From Hyphomonadaceae bacterium BRH_c29 (lineage in GTDB: Bacteria; Pseudomonadota; Alphaproteobacteria; Caulobacterales; Hyphomonadaceae), in assembly GCA_000961695.1 (NCBI GenBank), contig LADW01000077.1, forward strand, positions 95,964 through 159,963: a DNA stretch of 64,000 nucleotides, read 5' to 3'. The position numbers were made by a program, and so were the translations under genes. The notes below the pieces were generated by a model, which ran no database searches, was not told the origin of the DNA, and was given only the letters and a program-made list of their open reading frames with translations. Below are positions 22,287-24,464 of this stretch, in pieces. How positions within the stretch are numbered: the stretch's first letter is position 1; every line of letters starts with the position of its first letter.

Positions 22287-22315
22287 ATGACAAAATTTCA
22301 GCCCCGTAAAATATT
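22287..22315 (+). promoter_or_regulatory. candidate promoter of the ornithine decarboxylase leader
   Basis: ATGACA, 17-bp spacer, AATATT. The predicted start site is near 22322, giving a 5' UTR of about 134 nt before the ATG at 22456. Confidence 0.45.
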
Positions 22316-22321
22316 TTCTCT

Positions 22322-22455
22322 TGCGTGCCCGGAATTTGTCCACTACATCGCAGTTCGAAATAGAGATGTGGCGGACACTCTGCGCTAACCCACTCAGTGG
22401 GGGCCCCCGTACTAACGCCCAAAGCTGGTTAAAAGCCCTTTGGAGGTTAGGTGTC
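22322..22455 (+). ncRNA. structured 5' leader of ornithine decarboxylase, candidate speF element
   Basis: Three helices can be drawn. P1 pairs GTCCACTACATC (22338-22349) with GATGTGGCGGAC (22365-22376), 11 of 12 positions. P2 is CCCACTCAGTGGG. P3 pairs CTAACGCCCAAAG (22412-22424) with CTTTGGAGGTTAG (22438-22450), 11 bp around a 2x2 internal loop, and includes the SD GGAGG. An upstream CTAACC (22385-22390) could pair with GGTTAG instead, giving a rival structure. Alphaproteobacterial ornithine decarboxylase genes are known to carry the speF RNA motif; membership here is inferred from position and SD masking. Confidence 0.65.
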
Positions 22456-23649
22456 ATGCACTCCTATGCTACCCCCATTCACGTTGTACGTGAGTCCCAA
22501 CCGGACATGCCTGTCTGGTGTTTTCGTCCCGAGCGCGTCACCGCGTCGGCGAAATGGTTCCGCGAGTCTTTCTCGGCTGAGCCATTCTATGCCGTGAAGG
22601 CAAACCCTGGCGTGCACGTTCTTGACGCGCTCTGGGCTGGCGGCGTTCGCAGCTTCGATTGCGCTTCCGACAGGGAAGTCGAACTGATCCGTACGCGGTT
22701 CCCTTCGGCACGCATTGCCTTCCTGCACCCGGTGAAGAACCGCCGCGCCATTGCCCGTGCCTATCACGAGTTCGGCGTGCGCATCTTCGTCACCGACACG
22801 ATGGCTGAACTGAACAAGATCCTCGAGGAAACCGGCCACCCGTCGGACCTGACGATCATTGTTCGTGTCGCTGTGTCCTGTGAGGGTGCTGCCCTGCCGC
22901 TGGCCGGCAAGTTTGGTGCGAGCGCGGACGATGCTGCAGAAATCCTGCGCGAAGCCCGCCGCTATGCTGACGAACTGGGCGTCTCGTTCCATGTCGGCAG
23001 CCAGGCGCTGAAGCCGACGGCCTGGGCGACTGCCATGGCTGACGTGTCGCGGATCATCATCACGGCTGGTGTCACGGTCGACATCGTGGATGTCGGCGGC
23101 GGCTTCCCGTCCATCTATGCCGATGGCGCGCCGCCCTCGCTGGAATCCTATGCCGCCATGGTCGAAGCTTCGTTCGAGAACATGTTCGTTCTCGAAAACG
23201 CTGACCTCTGGTGCGAGCCGGGCCGTGCGCTGGTCGCCGAGTCGGAAAGCCTGCTGTGCCGCATCGACCTGGTGAAGGAAGATGCGATCTACATCAATGA
23301 CGGCTCCTATGGCGCCCTCTACGATGCCGTGCACGAGCGCTGGCAGTTCCCGATGCGCGTGATCTCTGGCAATGGCCGCAAGATGAAAGGCATGAAAGCC
23401 TACACCATCTACGGCCCGACCTGCGACTCGACCGACAAGTTCCCGGAGCAGATCATGCTGCCGGCAAACCTTGGCGAAGGCGACTATATCGAGTTCGGCA
23501 ACCTGGGCGCCTATGGCCGTGCCATGTCCAGCCGCTTCAATGGCTTCGGTGAAACCGAAGTTGTGGAAGTGCAGGACGCCCCCTGGCCGAGCCTCTACGG
23601 TTCTGTCGGTGCCGAAGTCGTGTCCATCGGCTCGATCGCCACGCGCTGA
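22456..23649 (+). CDS. odc: type III PLP-dependent ornithine decarboxylase
   Basis: 397 aa from ATG 22456, preceded by GGAGG with 9-nt spacing. Alanine-racemase-fold group IV decarboxylase: PLP lysine in FYAVKANP (K48), HVGSQ (179-183), CEPGRALVAES (EPGRA at 254-258) and the inter-subunit catalytic cysteine in GPTCDSTD (C323). This matches eukaryotic-type ODC or bifunctional lysine/ornithine decarboxylase. It makes putrescine and requires a dimer, since each active site uses residues of both subunits. The track ORF extends upstream through the leader and is not the real start. It overlaps convergent murI by 55 bp. Confidence 0.92.
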   Translation: MHSYATPIHVVRESQPDMPVWCFRPERVTASAKWFRESFSAEPFYAVKANPGVHVLDALWAGGVRSFDCASDREVELIRTRFPSARIAFLHPVKNRRAIARAYHEFGVRIFVTDTMAELNKILEETGHPSDLTIIVRVAVSCEGAALPLAGKFGASADDAAEILREARRYADELGVSFHVGSQALKPTAWATAMADVSRIIITAGVTVDIVDVGGGFPSIYADGAPPSLESYAAMVEASFENMFVLENADLWCEPGRALVAESESLLCRIDLVKEDAIYINDGSYGALYDAVHERWQFPMRVISGNGRKMKGMKAYTIYGPTCDSTDKFPEQIMLPANLGEGDYIEFGNLGAYGRAMSSRFNGFGETEVVEVQDAPWPSLYGSVGAEVVSIGSIATR

Positions 23650-24464
23650 ACTTCCGGGAAACCGTACCGCCTGAGGACGAGTGCAAGATCTGCCTCGTCC
23701 TCAGGCGAACTCGTCAAAAACGCCTCACCGCCAATGCCGCGCGCTTCCGTCTCAACCGGCAGGACACGGATGGTCTGGCGCGCAATCGCGGCGCCGGAAT
23801 CCACATAGCTGACAGGCCGGGGCGCGCTGGCGATCAACTGGCCGCGCACCAGCGGAAAGTGCGTGCAGGCGAGCACCACCGTATCGATCTCCTCTCCGCC
23901 CGGCACATCGAACAGCGGCGCCTGCGCCTCTGCGAACCGGTCGATGGGAATGTCTTCGCCGCGCGCGTGCGCTTCAGCGAGACGGACAAGCTCGATGCTG
24001 CCATGCATGATGACATGCAGGTGTCCGGCGTATGTCTGGATCAGCTCAGAGGTGTAGGCGCGCCGGATCGTGCCGGGCGTTGCCAGCAGGCCGACCGTGC
24101 CGGTCCGCGTCAGGCCAGCGGCGGGCTTGATCGCAGGCACGGTGCCGACGACCGGGATATCCAGCACGGCGCGCACCTCGGCAAGGGCCAGCGTCGAGGC
24201 CGTGTTGCAGGCAATCACGAATACGTCCGGACGGACACGGTCGCAGAGCGCCTTCGCCACTTTCGGCAGGCGCTCGCGCAGCGCATCGTCTGACTTGTCG
24301 CCATAGGGGAAGAACCCGGAATCGGCGGCATAGTGCACGCCCAGCGCCGGTCCGAGCGCGCGGATCTCCTCCGCAACGGTGAGGCCGCCCACACCGGAAT
24401 CAAACACAAGCACCCGCCCACGGGCAGGAGACGGCACAAAATTTCCGGGCAGCGCTTCAGACAT
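23595..24464 (-). CDS. murI: glutamate racemase
   Basis: 289 aa. FDSGVGGLTVAEEI, FFPYGDKSDD and the two catalytic cysteines, in ACNTAS and ACTHFPL, are all present. The enzyme makes D-glutamate for peptidoglycan. The C-terminal ~18 codons overlap the 3' end of odc on the other strand, an unusually long convergent overlap of 55 bp. It lies 46 bp downstream of an IMPase-family gene on the same strand. Confidence 0.93.
   Translation of the reverse strand: MSEALPGNFVPSPARGRVLVFDSGVGGLTVAEEIRALGPALGVHYAADSGFFPYGDKSDDALRERLPKVAKALCDRVRPDVFVIACNTASTLALAEVRAVLDIPVVGTVPAIKPAAGLTRTGTVGLLATPGTIRRAYTSELIQTYAGHLHVIMHGSIELVRLAEAHARGEDIPIDRFAEAQAPLFDVPGGEEIDTVVLACTHFPLVRGQLIASAPRPVSYVDSGAAIARQTIRVLPVETEARGIGGEAFLTSSPEDEADLALVLRRYGFPEVQRVAIEPMDTTSAPTEP

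Follow-up and report, generated by a model that had tools for sequence, protein, structure and literature searches.

In Escherichia coli, the leader of the ornithine decarboxylase gene speF encodes a leader peptide, SpeFL, and ornithine is the signal. The enterobacterial speF leader (described for Salmonella in PMC6386406) resembles the leader reported here in that an ornithine decarboxylase is placed under leader control, but it acts via its leader peptide, whereas no conserved upstream ORF is present in our leader. The spermidine riboswitch (PMC10853860) also lies in an mRNA leader of the polyamine pathway but its aptamer is a SAM-I variant; no SAM-clan Rfam family matches the leader described below. 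In the alphaproteobacteria, leader-RNA control of polyamine synthesis so far consists of two orphan motifs, speF and odc1. The alphaproteobacterial speF motif is a 153-position element that is followed by more than 150 nt before the start codon, and its RNA displayed no measurable binding of ornithine, putrescine or spermidine (Corbino et al. 2005, PMC1273637). The odc1 motif (uORF-25-1) was reported with 272 alphaproteobacterial examples and, in the outline given by its authors, comprises a hairpin, P1, with the ribosome binding site in its right shoulder, a pseudoknot between the 5' end and the loop, an 11-amino-acid uORF and a pair of UUG codons spaced by two nucleotides; the example from Sphingomonas echinoides was assayed in E. 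coli by fusion to lacZ (Brewer et al. 2021, PMC8632094). The leader analyzed here would add a third system to these two, one that is compact and very conserved.

The leader lies in a 64,000-nucleotide stretch of DNA (the window) and precedes a gene of the ornithine decarboxylase family (Table 1). Pfam detected the two halves of the ornithine/arginine/DAP decarboxylase fold in the product, whose best relatives of solved structure are lysine/ornithine decarboxylases (5gjm, E 1.2e-37), and the NCBIfam lysA model gave 152 bits, far under its cut-off of 298. The protein also contains a GPTCDSTD stretch, which we take to be a mark of ornithine, not diaminopimelate, decarboxylases. The main start, ATG 22456, is backed by homology. 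Identity of 89-93% to the counterparts in Hyphomonas jannaschiana and further members of the genus places the window in a Hyphomonas genome, and the gene was found in about 25 genomes of that genus. At 23595-23649 its 3' end shares about 55 bp with that of a glutamate racemase gene running toward it on the minus strand (23595-24464).

Table 1. Positions of the leader, its predicted parts and the downstream gene in the window.
Feature	Position	Strand	Remarks
Predicted promoter	22321..22348	+	TTGCGT 22321-22326, 16-nt spacer, CTACAT 22343-22348
5' leader RNA	22355..22455	+	start inferred at about 22353-22356; identity changes from 0.63-0.65 upstream to 0.82-1.00 inside, 29 Hyphomonas loci
GGCGGAC block	22370..22376	+	5' part of the core conserved across the order; also seen in f1, f2 and f3 (GGCGGAG in f4)
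GACAC	22374..22378	+	5' strand of predicted closing helix with GTGTC 22451-22455 (MFE)
Variable hairpin insert	22381..22411	+	CCCAC 22389-22393 / GTGGG 22397-22401 (MFE)
CTAACC	22385..22390	+	possible rival partner of GGTTAG 22445-22450; perfect complement
CTAACGCC block	22412..22419	+	3' half of the conserved core
P3 hairpin masking the Shine-Dalgarno sequence	22412..22450	+	CTAAC 22412-22416/GTTAG 22446-22450 and CCAAAG 22419-22424/CTTTGG 22438-22443
Shine-Dalgarno GGAGG	22442..22446	+	9 nt before ATG; inside P3
Pair of possible start codons spaced by 2 nt	22451..22458	+	GTG 22451-22453, ATG 22456-22458 (GTG-TC-ATG)
Ornithine-decarboxylase-family gene	22456..23649	+	397 aa; Pfam PF02784 E 2.7e-40 and PF00278

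Mean pairwise identity among the 29 Hyphomonas loci was 0.34-0.65 upstream of position -88 (0.63 in the promoter region), 0.82 at -87 to -60, 0.91 at -60 to -40, 0.94 at -40 to -20 and 1.00 at -20 to -1. As a reference, within the gene itself, 96 fourfold-degenerate sites averaged 0.59 and the second codon positions 0.90. The conserved leader is about 100 nt long, and its identity boundary coincides with the predicted promoter, which sits directly 5' of it; a -35/-10-like pair is found at the same place in the genus and in the leaders of the order. The initial annotation had begun the RNA with a strong hairpin, also called P1, and its arms (GTCCACTACATC 22337-22348 with GATGTGGCGGAC 22365-22376) do form 11 of 12 pairs in the DNA. 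However, the 5' arm covers the predicted -10 box and is not maintained across the genus (for example in L004, L009 and L011), while the right arm is constant. We therefore rejected it as an RNA helix and read it as probably promoter DNA, with a transcription start that is inferred. An alternative E. coli-type promoter match at 22287-22315 would, if used, put this hairpin in the transcript.

The minimum free energy fold predicted for the transcript (22355-22458, -31.4 kcal/mol) is a three-way junction formed by the GACAC/GTGTC helix, the middle CCCAC/GTGGG hairpin and P3 with the Shine-Dalgarno (SD) sequence. P3 pairs CTAACGCCCAAAG (22412-22424) with CTTTGGAGGTTAG (22438-22450) as 5 and 6 bp flanking a 2x2 internal loop, and SD residues G 22442, 22443 and 22446 are paired in this prediction. 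All sequences named in the initial annotation are present where it placed them, including the 11-bp hairpin that holds the SD and the CCCAC/GTGGG helix. Its rival pairing of CTAACC with GGTTAG survives as a perfect complement in the window but not throughout the genus, since one Hyphomonas clade has CCAACC with no compensating change. The same annotation named two findings that would count against it, no match to the speF model and no covariation in P3. The first of these was obtained (see below); as to the second, the only change seen in the helix within the genus is an A-U to G-U exchange, and different pairable sequences take its place in two further genera of the family. In L027 and L028, P3 is replaced by CCAGT/ACTGG, which can mask the SD, and in L061 an SD-masking helix CCGGGTTT/AGACTTGG is predicted. 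Because the helices are invariant within Hyphomonas, covariation there is essentially absent. Elsewhere in the leader, the closing strands read GACAT/GTGTC in other Hyphomonas clades, the insert differs in length and sequence within the genus with a CCC/GGG hairpin retained, and the stretch after the core is CTGGTTAA in Hyphomonas.

The folding energy of 22355-22458 is ordinary (z = -0.39, with 68 of 200 shuffles equally stable), so that stability alone is no proof of leader structure; for 22322-22470 the value was z = -1.77. Predicted accessibility of the SD and start is low without being extreme (12th lowest among the 53 ORF starts in the window), and no transcription terminator was found. 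The case for the leader stands on conservation, and the contributions of folding energy and covariation are weak.

Conservation extends well beyond the genus. We read 102 non-Hyphomonas leaders of the same gene from five sampled families (f1-f5) of the order, which, judging by its named members Hyphomonas, Hyphomonadaceae and Parvularcula, is presumably Caulobacterales in the broad sense. In f1, f2 and f3, GGCGGAC comes immediately after a -35/-10-like pair, for which CTTTACA is typical in f2-f4, and is itself followed by an insert and (A/G)CTAACGCC. The core was recognized by reading in 8 of 8 non-Hyphomonas f1 loci and by script in 7 of these 8 (the eighth, L064, carries it outside the scanned part), in 36 of 36 f2 leaders and in 18 of 21 f3 leaders, where most have two full GGCGGAC...ACTAACGCC units. 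The script found the full core in 0 of 33 f4 and 0 of 4 f5 leaders; all 33 f4 leaders contain GGCGGA, in a reduced form (GGCGGAG, without CTAAC) whose unit is CCGGC-GGAGG(N)GACGAT-GCCGG. The element or its reduced form thus occurs in four of the five families, as a single copy, in tandem or with large extra domains. No such leader precedes the decarboxylase of genus g12 or of the f4 genera g11 and g40, whose enzyme is more divergent. Downstream of the core, most f1-f4 leaders contain (C/T)TGGGTT.AAC. The CTAACGCC block is retained in genera that have no downstream GTTAG (L027, L028 and f3, for example), and its GCC (22417-22419) is complementary to GGC 22370-22372, a pairing that is possible and invariant in the leaders compared. 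At the level of sequence, these comparisons show that the leader is conserved and non-coding and that its core is tied to the same gene in most of the order.

In f2 the two blocks are mostly separated by an insert of 14-30 nt and in Hyphomonas by one of about 35 nt; several further f1 genera, namely g13-g16 (L062-L067, L179, L215, L216), have inserts of about 70-165 nt. In g13, g14 and g16 this large insert is itself highly conserved (GGCTCGAGGCTCTGC..TTGATTCCACGTGGCGTCTG..GGATGACGTGTGCGGGTTGAG) and looks like an extra structured RNA domain; it had no Rfam match in L063 or L067. In f3 (L077-L087, L097, L180-L188), the tandem units are split by a conserved CCCCTCGGCCCAGGCCAC..CCGGCGTAAGCTCCC stretch and are possible tandem aptamers. 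The first codons of f3 genes (L077-L086, L181-L187) contain a small start-codon hairpin, GGAC-NNN-GTCC, whose counterpart in other genera is GGAT-NNN-ATCC (a C-G to U-A exchange), and the codons of f2 and f4 contain a similar GGACCTGGTCC.

A covariance model of the core, R1, found the core in its own genome (E 1.5e-6) and matched 32 of 41 relatives, with the main match just 5' of the decarboxylase wherever the position of the gene was known and a few weak extra matches elsewhere (E about 0.001-0.006). Both R1 and its alignment A1 were built from sequences chosen for holding both blocks, so the invariance of the blocks in A1 follows from that choice, of which the f1-f5 counts are free. Among 279 genomes of the class, R1 gave three matches outside the order (best E 5e-5), none upstream of this gene; these three, and weak second matches in G000 and G037, lack CTAACGCC. 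A further leader type was seen in other alphaproteobacteria (L107, L110, L124), where a short conserved block, approximately GACGC.AAGCGTCCTTTT..GAGCCGGTCT..GTGGACCGGTGC, lies 5' of decarboxylases 44-46% identical to ours.

Outside Hyphomonas the SD has other potential partners. The SD of f2, f4 and most of the remaining f1 genera, CAGGGG, is complementary to CCCCTG in the first codons; in these leaders TGGGT is complementary to ACCTGG slightly further into the gene, and the start codon lies within a small hairpin such as ACGTG-AATTGCG-CACGT. In an alignment of 30 sequences (A2), these three helices are 95.6, 95.2 and 68.2% paired, compared to at most 49% for the whole structure when partners were shifted by 1-3 columns. 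Covariation amounts to one G-C to A-U change in genus g14, where the SD pairs with a synonymous codon position, plus a few exchanges within the start hairpin; 94 of 500 shuffles equaled the covariation score, and the structure is only marginally above shuffles. We count these helices as conserved pairing potential, short of proven structure, and predict that the SD can be masked in most leaders, with burial of both SD and start possible in each of the families studied in detail. Pairing of the f4 loop with an SD-proximal GTCNC was no better than shuffles (p = 0.59).

Based on these observations, we propose that the leader is a cis-acting RNA that controls translation initiation of ornithine decarboxylase, a reading to which we give a probability of about 0.68. 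Translational control had already been suggested for this gene, and it is the natural reading of a conserved leader that lies 5' of a genuine ornithine-decarboxylase-family enzyme and holds the SD within a helix. In our model, transcription would start just upstream of the core, which would fold into a module with a GGC:GCC helix, GGAC facing CTAAC and the variable hairpin on top. This module may sense the state of the ornithine/polyamine pathway, with ornithine, a polyamine or a protein as candidate signals. In Hyphomonas, the module and SD masking are mutually exclusive, because both need CTAAC 22412-22416 and GCC 22417-22419. The simplest reading would be a two-state switch, in which the masked form (P3 and the GACAC:GTGTC three-way junction by the start codon) is OFF and the form with the module is ON. 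If the module is the sensing state, the signal would open the SD and turn expression ON, which would suit the substrate ornithine, as in E. coli speF. If P3 with GACAC:GTGTC is the sensing state, the signal would close the SD and turn expression OFF, as would suit a polyamine end product. We lean slightly toward the module as the sensing state, on the geometry of the predicted folds.

A specific form of this proposal, which we consider possible at odds short of even, is a small-molecule riboswitch of a new class with the GGCGGAC/CTAACGCC module as its candidate aptamer. Short conserved blocks flank a variable insert, the f3 leaders carry tandem copies as known tandem riboswitches do, and the element is tied to one biosynthetic gene. 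On the other hand, the putative aptamer has no covariation support, f4 leaders lack the CTAAC half, and neither odc1 nor speF has an identified ligand, the binding assays on speF RNA having been negative for ornithine, putrescine and spermidine (PMC1273637). A related and about equally speculative statement is that the module forms the binding core of an undescribed, order-wide class of ornithine- or polyamine-sensing RNA that opens or closes the ribosome site of the decarboxylase. No Rfam family matches the window leader or the leaders of the other sampled families, and in the open-access literature we found no paper that describes this leader. The natural variants, which differ in insert length (about 14 to 165 nt), in the presence of tandem copies and in how the SD is masked, make the question of sensing directly testable.

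The leader could also be a divergent odc1 element that chooses between starts 2 nt apart, an alternative that we entertain tentatively, alongside the riboswitch. Both are alphaproteobacterial, lie 5' of ornithine decarboxylase, and have the SD in a helix and start codons exactly 2 nt apart. The published outline of odc1 includes the RBS in the right shoulder of P1, the pseudoknot and the start spacing (PMC8632094); in the window, a candidate for the pseudoknot would be GGC:GCC and one for P1 would be GACAC:GTGTC. The spacing is kept in the window's relatives: Hyphomonas has GTG-TC-ATG, and almost every leader of f1, f2 and f4 has GTG-NN-(T/A/G)TG, with TTG mostly as the second codon. Furthermore, the order itself holds odc1-like leaders: those of f5 (L093-L096 and L048, Parvularcula-like) have ATG-AG-ATG and a conserved 13-residue upstream peptide, MRW.....RLRWS, and look like a sister form of odc1, which makes a common ancestor plausible. 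Two f17 loci, L106 and L109, fit odc1 itself, with TTG-AA-TTG and 11-residue peptides that read MNCTVIPTQKL and MNCIRFLTPRL. In contrast to odc1 as its authors outline it, the window leader has GTG/ATG (GTG/TTG in relatives) in place of the UUG pair and no fixed 11-amino-acid uORF (the would-be peptides range from 2 to about 48 residues, 29-48 in Hyphomonas), and its family is marked by large variable inserts and tandem copies. It carries the GGCGGAC and CTAACGCC blocks and lacks the pattern CUGCC..GGGAC..CCGCAAGGCAG..GGUCCC of the odc1-like loci L103, L106 and L109, and R1 had no match in the f17 and f5 genomes searched. The complementarity between GGAC and the pre-start region (the GACAC:GTGTC type) has no covariation support in f1-f4 and is not above shuffles there (p = 0.20), whereas it is strong in odc1 and f5, which drive the value of p = 0.0006 obtained when they are added. 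Our leader is set apart from odc1 by the description of odc1, not by its alignment; it resembles odc1, may share its origin, and its family may overlap in part with the 272 odc1 members.

It is unlikely, in our view, that the conservation marks the site of an RNA-binding protein and not metabolite sensing by the RNA. Short conserved blocks in predicted loops and the GGAC/GUCC hairpins repeated in the leader and early coding region would be consistent with such a site, but no candidate protein has been identified.

Very little can be said for reading the conserved stretch as coding sequence, with the enzyme extended at its N-terminus by translation from a start further upstream. Many genomes do have the frame open into the leader (open frames of 431-473 aa versus 397). 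Insert lengths, however, differ by non-multiples of 3, the observed changes are mostly non-synonymous and alter the would-be peptide, the frame is interrupted by a stop in L027, and conservation over the last 20 nt exceeds that at second codon positions (1.00 versus 0.90); the leader is therefore non-coding. Three upstream ORFs were likewise considered and rejected. One from ATGTGG 22367 keeps neither its frame nor its ATG. Another, ATGCCGGATTGGGTT.., is seen in f4 leaders and owes its existence to a GAT before GCCGG; f1-f3 have ACGCC at this place, followed by a stop in many f2 leaders. The third, from the first of the paired starts, has no conserved length or end, and its PWTWS-like stretch is a by-product of conserved main-frame nucleotides.

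Membership in the speF family, as put forward in the initial annotation, is excluded at the level of the covariance model and should be dropped: the leader shares with speF the bacterial class, a downstream ornithine decarboxylase of COG0019 type (PMC1273637) and the absence of a known ligand, but RF00518 has no match here at the gathering score or at E <= 10 and none in the 41 relatives, although it works elsewhere, with matches in 11 of 289 alphaproteobacterial genomes. No conserved blocks are common to our leader and the true speF loci, which have their own conserved sequence, a much longer leader (ours ends at the start codon) and enzymes of a different branch of the decarboxylase family, 30-36% identical to that of the window. 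One of these loci, L052, was re-found by the model at 55.6 bits, and immediately 5' of its speF leader lies the sRNA family ar45 (RF02347; L052:1408-1492), with which it possibly shares a promoter.
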